From Devosia sp. (GTDB lineage Bacteria > Pseudomonadota > Alphaproteobacteria > Rhizobiales > Devosiaceae): 39,010 bases of DNA. The position numbers and the translations under genes were made by a program. Under the pieces are notes generated by a model. It was given only the letters and a program-made list of their open reading frames with translations. It did not search any database and was not told where the DNA came from. Positions 160 to 9,381 of this stretch are shown here, in pieces (position 1 is the stretch's first letter; every line of letters starts with the position of its first letter). The DNA lies in assembly GCA_030680995.1 (NCBI GenBank), contig JAUXUM010000064.1, positions 1-39,010 of the forward strand, in the 5' to 3' direction.

Positions 160-299
160 TCCGCGGCCGTCTCCCTACCCGCAAAGGGGAGGGATCGAGG
201 GTGGAGGTTGGCGGCGGACACCGGGCGTGCTGCTCCCCCCACCCTGCTCGCAATACGGACTTGGCAAGCCAAGTCCTTGCTCGCTTCCCTCCCCGCAAG
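160..299. repeat. Intergenic palindromic repeat cluster, target of the IS1595-like element
   Basis: gtctccctacccgcaaaggggagggatcgag at about 168..198; perfect hairpin GGACTTGGC-AA-GCCAAGTCC at 257..276; ccctccccgcaagggg interrupted by the IS, with the other half (acaagggggagggagacggccgaggg) resuming at about 4104. Confidence 0.5.
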
Positions 300-404
300 G
301 GGGATTATATACTTGACAACGGACAGGGGCGGCTCTCCGTCTCTGCGCCCTTTACTCGGTCGGCCGACCTCAATATCGTCCCCGGAATATTAGGGGGACA
401 ATTA

Positions 405-1751
405 ATGGCCGCGATACCGTTGAAGATCGAGCACTTAGTGCTCGATAGCGATAATCCACGAATTACTCATGCGGCTGGCCAACAAGAAGCCCTCCAGAAG
501 GTAGTCAAGGATCAAGGCGCTAAACTGGTGCGCTTGGCCGAGAGCATTGTCGAGCATGGCCTGAGTCCAATCGAAAGATTGATGGTGCTGGAAGTTAGCG
601 CCAAGCCAAGACGATTTATCGCACTAGAGGGCAATCGACGCGTCACGGCCCTGCGGTTGCTGGTCAACCCGGCGGCAATGACCGGCCTCGACATGCCGGT
701 TACGACGCGTAAAGCCCTCGAACGACTGGCCGCCGTTTTTGACAAGACCAAGGTCGAGCCGATCGATGCTTATGAGACCGAGTCGCGCGAGGCCGGACGC
801 TATTGGATTGGGCTTCGCCACAATGGCGAGGACGAGGGCCGCGGAGTCGTCGGTTGGAAGCCAATCGTCGCTGCGAGGTTTCGCAAAAGGGAGCCTGCAA
901 TCCAAGCGCTCGACTTGGTTCTGGAACATGGCGGGTTTGGTGAGGATGAGGCGGAAACGATTAGGTCGAAGTTTTCCCTAACGACTCTTCGCCGCCTCAT
1001 CGAATCAGAAGAAGTCCGAGCGCTGATGGGGCTGACTGTCGAGGACGGGCAGCTCATGACGACACTGCCCGGCAATGAGGTCATCAAGCCGCTAAAGCGG
1101 CTTGTCCGCGACATTGCGGCCAAAGAGGTCAACTCGCGAAGCTTCAACAAGACGAAGCAAATGGTCGACTATGTGCAGCGTTTCGGGAAGGCAGAGCGCC
1201 CCGATTTGGCGAAGACCCAAGCGCCCCGATCGGTGGAAGGTCTCCAAAAGAAAGAGTTCACGAAGACCGGGACGGCAGCCGCCAAGCGGCGGCAAAAAAG
1301 CGTGTCAGAGCGCCCGAACGTGGTTCCCAAGAACTGCCCCATCAACGTCACCGACAACCGCATCGATGAGATCTATGGCGAGCTACGCAGCCTGAAACTT
1401 GTCGACGCTCGCAACGCCATCGCCGTCCTCTTGCGGGTGTTTCTTGAGCTGTCGATTGATCATTTTCTCGAAGCGAATGGCAGCTCTTTACAGGTCACGT
1501 TCGAGACCGGGAAAACAAAATGGAAAACCCTCGACACCAAGCTGGCCGAGGTGGTGGACATTCTGGTAGGCATAGGTGTGCCGCGCGCTTATTTCGCGGC
1601 TGTCATCAGAAGTGTGAGCGACAAGGCCAGCCCCATGCACATCGATCTATTTCATCGATATGTCCACGACAGGTTCCAAACGCCTGTGACGACGGACCTT
1701 ATCGCCGCATGGAACAACGCGCAGCCGCTCCTAGAGAAAATTTGGCCGTGA
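405..1751 (+). CDS. ParB/Srx-type N-terminal domain protein (passenger gene)
   Basis: Frame of ORF 201..1751, with ATG at 405 inside the element. N-terminus IEHLVLDSDNPRI...LAESIVEHGLSPIERLMVLE...FIALEGNRRVTALRLL is ParB-like. C-terminal region has RNAIAVLLRVFLELSIDHFL. Confidence 0.8.
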   Translation: MAAIPLKIEHLVLDSDNPRITHAAGQQEALQKVVKDQGAKLVRLAESIVEHGLSPIERLMVLEVSAKPRRFIALEGNRRVTALRLLVNPAAMTGLDMPVTTRKALERLAAVFDKTKVEPIDAYETESREAGRYWIGLRHNGEDEGRGVVGWKPIVAARFRKREPAIQALDLVLEHGGFGEDEAETIRSKFSLTTLRRLIESEEVRALMGLTVEDGQLMTTLPGNEVIKPLKRLVRDIAAKEVNSRSFNKTKQMVDYVQRFGKAERPDLAKTQAPRSVEGLQKKEFTKTGTAAAKRRQKSVSERPNVVPKNCPINVTDNRIDEIYGELRSLKLVDARNAIAVLLRVFLELSIDHFLEANGSSLQVTFETGKTKWKTLDTKLAEVVDILVGIGVPRAYFAAVIRSVSDKASPMHIDLFHRYVHDRFQTPVTTDLIAAWNNAQPLLEKIWP

Positions 1752-1753
1752 GT

Positions 1754-2659
1754 ATGTCTGAGAGCCGACCGCGAAGGTTGGTGCACTTCACGCCGCTCCG
1801 CTACCCCGGCGGCAAAGGCAAGCTCGCTGCCTATGTCAAAGAGATCATTCGAGCCAATCAGCTATTCGATGGCGAGTACGTCGAGCCCTATGCGGGCGGG
1901 GCGGCTATAGCGCTTGAACTGCTGTTTCAGGAGTACGTCTCCAGCGTCCACATAAACGACCTGAGCGGGCCGGTTTACTCGTTCTGGAAGAGTGTTCTGA
2001 ATGACACCGAGGCGCTGTGCAAGCTGGTCAAGAACACCAAGCTCACCGTAGCCTCATGGGACCGTCAGAAGCGCATTTTCAGCAATCCTGACGACCATAG
2101 CTATGTCGAGGTTGGCTTCGCGACCTTCTTCCTGAATCGAACGAACCGCTCTGGCATCTTGAACGCTGGGATCATCGGCGGACGCGACCAGACCGGCCCC
2201 TGGAAGATTGACGCCCGGTACAACGCCGACGAATTGATCTTCCGCATCGAGTCCATCGCCAAAATGAAGAAGCGGATCAAGCTCACGCAGAGCGACGCTT
2301 TAGCCCTGCTCAAGCATGGCATGACCAAGTGGACGGACAAGACACTGATCTACATGGACCCGCCGTATTTCGAGCGCGGGCGCGATCTCTACTACGACTT
2401 CTATCGCTCTGACGACCACGCCGACCTCGCGCAGTTCGTGGCAAAGAACCTTGCGGGGCGGAAGTGGATTATCTCATACGACAACGTCAAGGCGATCACC
2501 GACCTCTATGCGGGTTTCCGCAGCGTGGTCTATGATGTGGGCTACTCGGCGCGAGAAAATCGCGTTGGACGGGAAGTGATGTTCTTTGCACCAAAGCTGA
2601 CGATCCCGGCTGTGGCTGGTCCGATCAAGCAGGTGGGCAAGGTAAGGGAGGCGGCGTAA
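1754..2659 (+). CDS. D12-class (Dam-like) DNA adenine N6-methyltransferase
   Basis: Motifs LRYPGGKGKLAAYV, EPYAGGAAIALELL and YMDPPYFERG (DPPY). ATG lies 2 bp after the ParB-like stop. Confidence 0.92.
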   Translation: MSESRPRRLVHFTPLRYPGGKGKLAAYVKEIIRANQLFDGEYVEPYAGGAAIALELLFQEYVSSVHINDLSGPVYSFWKSVLNDTEALCKLVKNTKLTVASWDRQKRIFSNPDDHSYVEVGFATFFLNRTNRSGILNAGIIGGRDQTGPWKIDARYNADELIFRIESIAKMKKRIKLTQSDALALLKHGMTKWTDKTLIYMDPPYFERGRDLYYDFYRSDDHADLAQFVAKNLAGRKWIISYDNVKAITDLYAGFRSVVYDVGYSARENRVGREVMFFAPKLTIPAVAGPIKQVGKVREAA

Positions 2660-2937
2660 TGGCTAGAGCGCAAAAGCCCGCTGGGACTCGGACCAACTCT
2701 GGAAGAAAGCTGAACGAGCGTTGGAACATAGGCGCGGCTCACGCGCTCTATCATCGCGAAGGCACGTGGTTCAATCTTCTCGAGCGGTTCCCCGGCGCGC
2801 TGTGTGACCCCAATGGATATGTGCTTTTCTCTGGCAAGTCCGAGTACGAGAATTCGCCGGACGTTCATATCGGCCAACAAACGAATGTTCCGGGCGGAAT
2901 TCATCGGATGAGCGGCTACACTCGGATGACAAGATGA
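2659..2937 (+). CDS. Small protein resembling the C-terminal region seen in some HNH endonuclease-type proteins (HALYHREGTWFNLLERFPGALCDPNGYVLF...INVPGGI-like)
   Basis: 92-aa ORF, TAATG overlap with the methylase stop. Family resemblance is from memory of the motif only; no HNH catalytic motif is visible. Confidence 0.6.
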   Translation: MARAQKPAGTRTNSGRKLNERWNIGAAHALYHREGTWFNLLERFPGALCDPNGYVLFSGKSEYENSPDVHIGQQTNVPGGIHRMSGYTRMTR

Positions 2938-3086
2938 AGAAGCCCAAGCTCGACCTTAAAACGATCGAGGTGCTGAAGCGGGTGCTAGCGATGCCGCCAA
3001 AGCCGCACGACGAGATGAAGGTTGGGCAATCGAAAAAGCGGAAGCCTAAAGCCCCCGCCTCTTCCTCCAAGCCGCCAGCCTCTTAA
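2934..3086 (+). CDS. 50-aa basic hypothetical protein MKKPKLDLKTIEVLKRVLAMPPKPHDEMKVGQSKKRKPKAPASSSKPPAS
   Basis: Manual translation; not in the supplied ORF track (below its length cutoff). ATGA overlap with the upstream ORF. Its TAA (3084..3086) shares the TTAA tetramer with the convergent transposase stop. Confidence 0.6.
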   Translation: MKKPKLDLKTIEVLKRVLAMPPKPHDEMKVGQSKKRKPKAPASSSKPPAS

Positions 3087-4039
3087 TGAACTGCCGTTGA
3101 TCGGTGATTTCCGTTAGTCGGCCGGTACGTGAGACGCTTGCCTTCGATACCCTTGGCAATCAGCGCGGCACGTTCTCCATCGGAGTTCTTGCGGGTGTTG
3201 TACTTAAAGTCCCATTCGACAAGGTAGCGAGAAAGGTGGGCGGCACTGATCGAGTGGTGGGTACCGTAAACCGCGCGCTTCATGAGGCTAAAACGACCTT
3301 CCGCCGTATTGGTGTATGCATCACCGCGAACGTACTCGTCCTTGCCGTGGTCAACCATCTCATGACGCGTAAACTCCTTGCCGACATGCAGGTAGCCGCC
3401 AGCGGTATCGGTCATCAGAGTTGACTTGCGGCTCACACGCTCATCGAGAACTGTCCGCAACGTCGCGCCGCTGATGTTGGCGATATGCTCAGACCGCGCG
3501 CGACCGTCCCGCTCGACCAGAGTGTGGACAATCTGCTTGCCTGCGCCGCCGATGTTCCCGGCCTTGCGCTTCCCGACGTGCTTGTTCTTCTCGCGACCAC
3601 CAATGTAGGTCGTGTCCGCTTCAACAATCTTCCCTTCTCCACCAATGGGAGTGGGGTTGACCTCGGTCATTGCCTCGCGAATTCTGTGGCACAGAAACCA
3701 TGCCGTCTTGTACGTGACACCAAGCATTCGGCTCAACTGTAGAGCGCTCATGCCCTTTTTCGATGCGCCCACGAGATGCATGGCGAACAGCCACTTTGAG
3801 AGGGAAATTTTGCTCCGCTCCATGACGGTGCCGACCGTGACCGTAAACTGGCCGTTGCACGCAGCACAGTAGTAGAGCCCGGCGCGGTGCGCAGTGCCTT
3901 GCCCCTTGGCGATCTTCTCCTGATCCAAATTGCCGCAATGGGGGCACACGGGACCGTCAGGCCAACGGACGGACTCAAGCGCTTCGCGGGCCGCGCCGTC
4001 ATCGAAAAATGCAGGGTTCTGAATAGCGGCTTGGGCCAT
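3083..4039 (-). CDS. IS1595-family transposase (ISXO2-like DDE domain)
   Basis: CPHCG...YYCAACNGQFTVTVGTVMERSKISLSKWLFAMHLVGASKKGMSALQLSRMLGVTYKTAWFLCHRIREAM; EADTTYIGGREKNKH; downstream DHGKDEYVRGDAYTNTAEGRFSLMKRAVYGTHHSIS. Confidence 0.95.
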   Translation of the reverse strand: MAQAAIQNPAFFDDGAAREALESVRWPDGPVCPHCGNLDQEKIAKGQGTAHRAGLYYCAACNGQFTVTVGTVMERSKISLSKWLFAMHLVGASKKGMSALQLSRMLGVTYKTAWFLCHRIREAMTEVNPTPIGGEGKIVEADTTYIGGREKNKHVGKRKAGNIGGAGKQIVHTLVERDGRARSEHIANISGATLRTVLDERVSRKSTLMTDTAGGYLHVGKEFTRHEMVDHGKDEYVRGDAYTNTAEGRFSLMKRAVYGTHHSISAAHLSRYLVEWDFKYNTRKNSDGERAALIAKGIEGKRLTYRPTNGNHRSTAVH

Positions 4040-4158
4040 GACGATCTCCTATGACCTTAGAATCGTCATTCCGGTCTCCGTTGTCAAGTATATAATCCCC
4101 CCCACAAGGGGGAGGGAGACGGCCGAGGGATCGGGTCCAAACATGCCACTCCCACCGG

Positions 4159-6609: not shown

Positions 6610-6736
6610 GTCCGGTCTCTCATTGTCCCGGTTCTTAGCAGGCCGATTGCGCCGATTCCAAGTCCTGTCGGCGCAAAGTCTTGCCGGTCAAGCCGGTCGA
6701 CGGGCCGCGGCCCCGCCTGGTTCCGGACCGGACCGA

Positions 6737-7270
6737 TCAGGCGCAGGCCTTGTCGATCTCGGTCATCGCCGCCGTCACCCCGCCGAGCGAATAGGTGTCG
6801 GTGGTATTGGTGCCGCGCTGGCTGGTGCCCTTGACCACCAGCGCCGAGCCGGCCTTGAGCGCGGCGACGAAATTTGCCTCGTCTCCGGCGCTGGCGAGCC
6901 AGGCCGCTTCGCCTTCGGTGACCATCGGATAGGTCTTGCCGTCGATGGTGGCGCTCGCACCGGCGCCGGAAGTGTTGAAGGGATAGCCGATCAGCGTCTG
7001 CACCTCGTTCTTGGTCCCCAACCCCTTGCGGTGAATGACCAGGAAATGGATGGGGCTGCGGTTGACCCCGTCGGGTGCGGACTTTTCAGGCTGGCTGGAA
7101 ATATAGCACATTTCGCCATTGGCGTCCCTGCCCTTCCAGGCGGTCCAGGCCTTGAACGTTCCCAGATTGGTCGCTTCCTGCGCGATCGCCGGAGCGGCAA
7201 AGCTCGAAGCGGCGAGGCAGGCAACGAGGCTCAAAACGAGGCCAAGTCGAGATGATGTCATCGAAAACAC
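6737..7270 (-). CDS. Secreted protein, invasion-associated locus B (IalB)-like
   Basis: Signal peptide ending APAIAQ; FKAWTAWKGRDANGEMCYISSQPEKS...VVKGTSQRGTNTTDTYSLGGVTAAM aligns with its neighbour. Confidence 0.65.
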   Translation of the reverse strand: MFSMTSSRLGLVLSLVACLAASSFAAPAIAQEATNLGTFKAWTAWKGRDANGEMCYISSQPEKSAPDGVNRSPIHFLVIHRKGLGTKNEVQTLIGYPFNTSGAGASATIDGKTYPMVTEGEAAWLASAGDEANFVAALKAGSALVVKGTSQRGTNTTDTYSLGGVTAAMTEIDKACA

Positions 7271-7452
7271 CCCTAGTCCCTAAGGTTGCACCATCAGCAT
7301 CCGCACCATGGCATCGTGCCACCGCATGGTTACCAAGGTCTCAAAGCCGAAGCGCATTTGAATTAATTGGCGACCATAGCGGCAATCGTGTCGGCATTTT
7401 GGCGCGCGCCGGCAGGTTATTGCCTGTTTGCCGTCCGAGGGTGAAGGAAGAG

Positions 7453-8010
7453 TTAACCAATTCGCAGCAGTCGGGCGGCCAGGGGATACGACTGTTCCAC
7501 CAGATAGGGGCCGCCGCCGACCGAATCGCGGCTGGAAAACAGCACGAACCGCCCCACCGCAAATTCCAGCGGCTCGAAGCGCCCCGAAAAGGTCATCAGG
7601 CGCGCCAACTCCCCCGCCGAGGTGCCGCGCAGCCGCGCCAGCGACACATGCGGGACGAACTTGCGGCCCTCCGGCTCGAGGCCGAGCCGCTGCAGCACCC
7701 GTTCCTGCGCCGCCTGCAGCCGCTGCAGCGCGCCGTTGTTCTCGACCCCGGCATATAGCGCCCGCGGCTTGTCGCCGCCGAACGAGCCCAGATGCCCGAG
7801 CTTGATGGTGAAGGCTTCGCTGTTGGTCAGCCGGTCCAGCCCATCGGTCACCTCGTTGGCGGTCGCATAATCGACATCGCCGATGAAACGGAGCGTGATG
7901 TGGTAGTTTTCCGGATCGATCCAGCGGGCGCCATAGAGGCCGCCGCGTTTAAGCGAGAGTGCGAATGCCACATCGTGTGGGACTTCGAGACCAGTGAAGA
8001 GTCTGGGCAA
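7453..8010 (-). CDS. thpR: RNA 2',3'-cyclic phosphodiesterase
   Basis: Two HxTL/HVSL motifs (YHITLRFIGDV and FVPHVSLARL). TTG start at 8010 preceded by AGGAGG five nt upstream. Further upstream ORF extension enters the ISAs1 element and is rejected. Confidence 0.9.
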   Translation of the reverse strand: MPRLFTGLEVPHDVAFALSLKRGGLYGARWIDPENYHITLRFIGDVDYATANEVTDGLDRLTNSEAFTIKLGHLGSFGGDKPRALYAGVENNGALQRLQAAQERVLQRLGLEPEGRKFVPHVSLARLRGTSAGELARLMTFSGRFEPLEFAVGRFVLFSSRDSVGGGPYLVEQSYPLAARLLRIG

Positions 8011-8110
8011 TTGCCCCTCCTCTTTCCAACCAGGGAACGCGATTCGCAGCACACGCACGACAACCCTAGCCGTCAACCCGGGGAGCCGCAATGGGGGTTG
8101 CGACCGGTTC

Positions 8111-9381
8111 CAGGGCGACGGGTTCAGGTTAACGCCGAATGTGGGTTGACGGTTTGGACCTGGGCTATCGGAGGGGGGACGGTTCTGATTCCATCTGGAG
8201 CTTCTGATTCTGGAGGTCTCGATGTTGGATGTTCCGCCCAAGCCGCGCCTGCGCAGCTTGCTCGAACACTTTGCGGTCATCGGCGACCCGCGCCAGTCGT
8301 GGAAGGTGATGTATCCGCTGCGGGAGGTCATCCTGCTGGTGGTCTGCGCCACCATCGCGGACTGCGACGACTATGACGAGATCGCCCTGTGGGGCGAGGC
8401 GCACCTTGATTTCCTGCGCGGGCTGTCGGAGTTCCACTTCGGGATCCCCTGCGAGGACTGGCTGCGCGATCTGATGAACCGCATCGACCCGGCCTTGTTC
8501 CGCGCCTGTTTCGAGGCCTGGGTCGCCGAGCGCTGGCCGCAGCCGGCCAGGCTGGTGGCGCTCGACGGCAAGACCTCCCGCGGCAGCCGTGACGACGCCG
8601 GCGAACGCAAGGCCCTGCATCTGGTCTCCGCCTTCGCCACCGACCGCGACCTCGTGCTCGGCCAGGAGGCGGTGACGGAGAAGTCCAACGAGATCACCGC
8701 CATCCCGCTGCTGCTGGAGCGCCTGGCGCTGGACGGGGCGCTGGTGAGCATCGACGCCATGGGCTGCAACCCGGCCATCGCCCAGAACATCCTCGACGCC
8801 CAGGCCGACTACCTGCTGGCCGTGAAGGACAATCAGCCCACCCTGCACGCCGAGATCGAAAGCTATTTCGACACCGCCCCCACCCAAGAGGTCCAGGTCT
8901 TCCAGGATATCGACAAGGGCCATGGACGGATCGAGAGCCGCACCTGCCGTGTCTCCAGCACCATCGACTGGCTGCAGGCCGACCGCGCCTTCCCCGGCGC
9001 CTTCCGCTTCCCCGAGGCCGCCGCCATCGCCGTCATCGACACCCGCGTCGAACACAAGGGCCGGATCGCCACCGCCCGGCGATCCTACATCACCTCGCGC
9101 CCCCTGTCGGCATTGGACCTCGCCCAGGCCGTGCGCGGTCACTGGGGCATCGAAAACAAGCTGCACTGGGTGCTCGACGTCGACTTTGGCGAAGACCGAT
9201 CCCGACTGACCGGCCACGGCGCCCACAACATGGCCATCGTCCGCCACTTCGCCATCAATCTGGTCCGAACCAGGACCGACAAAAAATCCATCAAGTCCCG
9301 CAGAAAATGCGCCTCCTGGGACACCAGATATCTCCTCGGCATCCTCTCTCAATCCACCGTTAACCTGGACTCGTAGCCCTG
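8111..9381 (+). mobile_element. ISAs1-family insertion sequence, complete
   Basis: Imperfect 24-bp inverted repeats CAGGGCGACGGGTTCAGGTTAACG / CAGGGCTACGAGTCCAGGTTAACG. Perfect 10-bp direct repeat CGACCGGTTC at 8101..8110 and 9382..9391. Confidence 0.95.
8222..9376 (+). CDS. ISAs1-family transposase
   Basis: LVALDGKTSRGSRDD, YLLAVKDNQPTLHAEI, GHWGIENKLHWVLDVDFGEDRSR. Confidence 0.96.
   Translation: MLDVPPKPRLRSLLEHFAVIGDPRQSWKVMYPLREVILLVVCATIADCDDYDEIALWGEAHLDFLRGLSEFHFGIPCEDWLRDLMNRIDPALFRACFEAWVAERWPQPARLVALDGKTSRGSRDDAGERKALHLVSAFATDRDLVLGQEAVTEKSNEITAIPLLLERLALDGALVSIDAMGCNPAIAQNILDAQADYLLAVKDNQPTLHAEIESYFDTAPTQEVQVFQDIDKGHGRIESRTCRVSSTIDWLQADRAFPGAFRFPEAAAIAVIDTRVEHKGRIATARRSYITSRPLSALDLAQAVRGHWGIENKLHWVLDVDFGEDRSRLTGHGAHNMAIVRHFAINLVRTRTDKKSIKSRRKCASWDTRYLLGILSQSTVNLDS

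Follow-up and report, generated by a model that had tools for sequence, protein, structure and literature searches.

The window analyzed here is the whole 39,010-nucleotide stretch of Devosia sp. contig JAUXUM010000064.1, near whose left end lies an IS1595-family transposon with the following features:

292..299, unstranded: left copy of the target site duplication (TSD), CCCGCAAG, from a joint end/TSD search
300..4100, unstranded: IS1595-family transposon, 3801 bp; inverted repeats 24/24, TSD 7/8, transposase intact
300..323, + strand: left terminal inverted repeat, GGGGATTATATACTTGACAACGGA, from an inverted-pair search and alignment with related elements
405..1751, + strand: PD-Lambda-5 A, a ParB/Srx-like protein of 448 aa (PADLOC PDLC03998, E 7.6e-126, residues 5-447)
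1754..2659, + strand: PD-Lambda-5 B, a D12-class adenine methylase of 301 aa with a DPPY motif (PF02086, 69 bits; PDLC04018, E 1.7e-118)
2659..2937, + strand: P0003, a lineage-specific ORF of 92 aa (homologue only in the AR07 element; dN/dS 0.13)
2934..3086, + strand: P0004, a K-rich ORF of 50 aa (family defined by an iterated HMM; dN/dS 0.21)
3083..4039, - strand: IS1595 transposase, 318 aa (PF12762, PF12760, NF033547; Zn-ribbon; D142, D211, E247, K254)
4077..4100, - strand: right terminal inverted repeat, from the same search and alignment as the left one
4101..4108, unstranded: right TSD copy, CCCACAAG, with one mismatch, from the joint end/TSD search

The four cargo ORFs all lie on the + strand with overlapping or nearly touching ends, and the transposase faces them convergently; no sigma-70 promoter within the element scored above shuffled sequences. 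The sequence-only reading had proposed a single ISXO2-like transposase, and the profile searches agree, with an ISXO2-like DDE domain well above threshold (PF12762, 115.4 bits with a cut-off of 27; NF033547, 180 with a cut-off of 75), an N-terminal zinc ribbon (PF12760, 45.6 with a cut-off of 25.4) and residues D142, D211, E247 and K254 conserved in the alignment with relatives. The window element thus has the DDE domain, zinc ribbon, terminal inverted repeats and 8-bp TSD (7/8) of an IS1595-family member. Longer members of this family carrying passenger genes, of the ISNwi1 type, are known. The window element has in common with them a zinc-ribbon and ISXO2-like DDE transposase, ends of about 24 bp, an 8-bp TSD and the presence of cargo, while for PD-Lambda-5 as the cargo and for the recurring K-rich small ORF the searchable papers gave no earlier description.

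A repeat search of the window gives a perfect 25-bp inverted pair at 299-323/4077-4101, and the joint end/TSD search over related elements sets the limits of the element at 300 and 4100. The perfect 24-bp terminal repeats seen initially are retained after alignment with related elements (24/24), and of the 8-bp target duplication the duplication itself stands, with seven rather than eight of its positions matching (CCCGCAAG vs. CCCACAAG). The end/TSD score of the window element is 32.4, compared with 26.6-33.6 for elements with a full 8/8 TSD and with best scores of 21.4-22.2 at four transposase loci without placeable ends, which serve as a chance control. In a same-genus genome (L180) the palindrome CCTCCCCGCAAGGGGGAGGGAGAC runs unbroken between rlmJ and an acetyltransferase gene, and this is the product of joining the window flanks using the left TSD copy. 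Since the empty site equals the left-copy join, it is probably the right copy that has changed, at some time after insertion. The left flank is short (299 bp) because the contig begins there.

C/G-rich palindromes of the CCTCCCCGCAAGGGGGAGG type occur at window positions 174-192, 288-306 and 4097-4115, one of them being the insertion target; these three copies compare with 0.02 expected, and same-genus genomes have copies too. The window element is present as a single copy in its genome, which also holds a second IS1595 element (L007, G000:C206:50000-64000, positions 6681-8998) with a perfect TSD (CCCTCGAG), a transposase 65-66% identical and an uncharacterized 215-aa cargo protein, likewise inserted in a C/G-rich palindrome. 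Just beyond that second element, at L007 4464-6303, a C5 cytosine methylase gene precedes the gene of an Eco29kI-type restriction endonuclease, and the two apparently make up a type II restriction-modification system. Within the window, positions 8222-9376 hold another transposase-like ORF of a different type, which we take to resemble the ISAs1 family.

The cargo had been described as a ParB-like gene with a D12 methylase, and both assignments hold in that the two proteins are full-length matches to the A and B components of PADLOC PD-Lambda-5, with B adjacent and downstream, as the system requires (A stop at 1751, B start at 1754). B exceeds the D12 methylase cut-off of 22 bits on PF02086 and scores 61.8 on NCBIfam dam, under the cut-off of 114.85. 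For A, nothing in Pfam rose above cut-off and a PDB profile search gave no match; we read it as ParB/Srx-like because its NPR and EGNRR motifs are invariant across five homologues and a homologue is publicly annotated with a ParB/Srx N-terminal domain. The AlphaFold model of A (pLDDT 39) is unusable; the dN/dS of A is 0.09.

PD-Lambda-5 is a two-gene defense system that was selected experimentally and gives broad protection; it was shown to guard E. coli against phages, in a test host without the mrr region, and its discoverers regard it as an RM+Abi-like system in compacted, prophage-borne form (Vassallo et al., 2022; PMC9519451). The window pair has the same two components in the same order with full-length matches, a likeness to the E. 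coli-tested system that is one of profile matches only, and it differs in setting, the published system being found in a prophage (PMC9519451) and this one in an IS1595 transposon, where two additional small ORFs accompany it. B also shares its D12 N6-adenine methylase class with the orphan Dam-type methylases of mobile elements, from which it differs by its dedicated partner A and by the sub-cut-off dam score. The defense role suggested earlier for the cargo is upheld insofar as the pair is PD-Lambda-5, and membership in that family is the ground on which A and B would be expected to have anti-phage activity.

The remaining two cargo ORFs, P0003 and P0004, had been called HNH-associated-like. 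We find no support for this association and dropped it, as neither ORF has a match in Pfam, NCBIfam, PADLOC or PHROGs. The low dN/dS values (0.13 for P0003 and 0.21 for P0004) indicate purifying selection, and therefore that both are real genes. P0003, whose AlphaFold model (pLDDT 44) is unusable, has so far been seen in no element but those of the window and AR07, and the L199 element described below lacks it; a match in G155 (E ~0.005) sits in ABC-transporter sequence and was taken as chance, and a further one occurs in G405 (E ~0.005).

That the cargo and transposase move as one unit is seen most directly in two related insertions. A first protein scan of the genome contigs returned no relatives, and an alignment scan returned AR07 and one fragment only. 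On a conjugative plasmid of Mesorhizobium sp. AR07 (L008), the same gene order lies within the ends of an element with a perfect 8-bp TSD, including full-length PD-Lambda-5 A and B matches. Identities to the window are 73% for A, 79% for B, 78% for P0003, 74% for P0004 and 72% for the transposase; all parts of the unit have diverged together. The second insertion, on an IMG/VR contig classed as viral (L199), is a 4289-bp version with 24/24 ends and CTCGAACC as the TSD on both sides (A 51%, B 73% and transposase 74% identical to the window proteins). It interrupts a gene for an ATP-dependent DNA ligase: one flank matches the middle domain (DNA_ligase_A_M) and the other the C-terminal domain (DNA_ligase_A_C), both in the same orientation. 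When the flanks are joined so that a single TSD copy is kept, they form an open frame of 323 aa (...LCRR|RFEGVIAKRADKPYRAG...), which becomes shorter if the junction is moved by one or two bases. The restored ligase frame is direct evidence that cargo and transposase were inserted together.

These insertions bear on the notion that a transposase and unrelated genes merely came together by chance within decayed ends. The TSD mismatch in the window and the fact that PD-Lambda-5 is mostly found elsewhere would fit such an accident. Against it, a unit with perfect TSDs occurs in two unrelated places, its parts have co-diverged and the ligase frame is restored; we regard chance proximity as refuted by the L199 insertion and the perfect TSDs, and its residual probability as negligible. 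The ends, TSDs and related insertions all confirm the single transposable unit bounded by inverted repeats, and the splitting of the ligase gene by the whole 4289-bp unit contradicts the alternative, raised in the sequence-only reading, that only the transposase part moves.

Order and class searches of the surveyed genomes gave 16 genomic A+B loci, 14 of which are outside IS1595 elements, the exceptions being the window and L084. Since most surveyed PD-Lambda-5 loci stand outside IS1595 elements, the module is a passenger of the transposon. A predominance of cargo homologs outside repeat-bounded units had been put forward as a reason to doubt the unit; it is indeed what we find, and it indicates an independent module that was captured and does not refute the unit. 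L084 is a 3600-bp IS1595 element with an 8/8 TSD whose A and B are full-length and distant. The A+B tree groups the cargo of the window element with the cargos of AR07 and L199 (98/97 support for this clade), and L084 falls apart from it both there and in the B tree. A forced single clade including L084 is rejected by the AU test (p = 2.6e-7 for B and 0.001 for A+B), with p ~0.001 being the safer figure because some tree branches are long. Because the trees and AU tests set L084 apart, IS1595 elements appear to have acquired PD-Lambda-5 at least twice, or else PD-Lambda-5 would have left them more than once.

We consider it likely that an IS1595 transposon, made up of two ends, a transposase and the small K-rich protein, took up an anti-phage operon of the PD-Lambda-5 type and now carries it between chromosomes and plasmids as a single unit. 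The transposase acts on the 24-bp ends and inserts the unit of 3.8-4.3 kb in its entirety, duplicating 8 bp of the target, as the ends, the TSDs and the split ligase gene show. As PD-Lambda-5 membership suggests, B would methylate adenine in host DNA and A, through its ParB/Srx-like DNA-handling N-terminal domain, would answer unmodified phage DNA by cutting or growth arrest. The defense module may thereby benefit the host, such that the transposon is retained.

Two other uses of the same genes have to be weighed against this. Restriction-modification pairs can act as addiction modules, and the cargo could serve mainly in this way, with A harming the host once methylation by B is lost and the transposon being stabilized as a result. 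The nearly touching A and B genes and the toxin/antitoxin-type domains (PIN, SocA/Panacea) in the cargo of related elements are compatible with this, but a lone chromosomal insertion needs no segregational stabilization, and we judge it improbable as the main function. It is similarly improbable that the methylase and A serve the transposon itself, with B providing anti-restriction methylation on entry and A acting as a regulator or partition-like protein. Orphan methylases are frequent on mobile DNA, and a conjugative plasmid and a contig from IMG/VR do harbor such elements, yet A and B constitute a conserved two-gene system residing largely outside the elements (14/16 surveyed loci), no methylase family is among the Pfam matches of other elements' cargo, and PD-Lambda-5 has tested anti-phage activity (PMC9519451).

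Capture of an anti-phage operon by the transposon, the reading we prefer, can also be set in the context of other cargo-bearing IS1595 elements. We found 42 bounded elements of 2.0-7.1 kb in the order, 37 with a perfect 8-bp TSD, and 48 in the IMG/VR and plasmid set, of which 42 have an 8/8 TSD. Cargo varies from element to element among the 42 and is mostly uncharacterized, with 14 Pfam families compared to 62 in flanking genes; PIN, SocA/Panacea, GmrSD, NYN and HNH domains occur in some cargo, as seen with simple ORF calls and with no significance claimed. PADLOC matches are no more common in cargo (~7/57 proteins) than in flanking genes (~7/57; both counts estimated from family tallies), so we dropped the idea that IS1595 elements are general defense carriers. 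Nested or overlapping elements were seen at L127 1014-8113 and L201 5922-11811, and at L105 5708-10500 two opposite-facing elements with different cargo have one 8-bp target copy between them (ATTTATTT / AAATAAAT), as if the second had entered the duplication of the first.

The P0004 family, defined by an HMM iterated from the window protein and without a Pfam or NCBIfam name, lies inside 35 of the 42 elements of the order and inside 38 of the 48 from IMG/VR and plasmid records, whatever their cargo; this unnamed K-rich small-protein family marks 70+ cargo-bearing IS1595 elements, in most of which the ORF is opposite in direction to the transposase. Only two other matches below E 0.01 occur in 861 kb, both beside transposases without placeable ends; 17 extra matches in the IMG/VR and plasmid set are at transposase loci, outside accepted bounds or with unaccepted ends; and loci with PD-Lambda-5 only gave no match. 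At L111 5822-6913 a small K-rich domain is fused to the C-terminus of the cargo protein, and the Trypsin_2 match in the cargo set probably belongs to this fusion. Because P0004 accompanies the transposon and not any one cargo, its role is most likely to help in transposition or in control of cargo expression. More tentatively, and with the balance somewhat against it, these elements may form a large unrecognized group built on a core of transposase and ~55-aa K-rich protein, the latter needed for mobility or cargo control, which shuttles interchangeable single modules, PD-Lambda-5 included, that were captured repeatedly.

The defense pair and cargo-bearing IS1595 elements are both known kinds. 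In the searchable literature (which did not extend to ISfinder or to the 2009 paper on the IS1595 family, so that absence is not proven) we found no description of PD-Lambda-5 on an IS1595 element, nor, within the same limits, of its capture at least twice or of the signature small protein. The locus shows that a complete anti-phage system moves with a simple element that has one transposase, and not within a prophage or a defense island, with the split ligase gene as a direct record of insertion, and that dozens of cargo transposons have in common an unannotated small protein that is open to a transposition assay.
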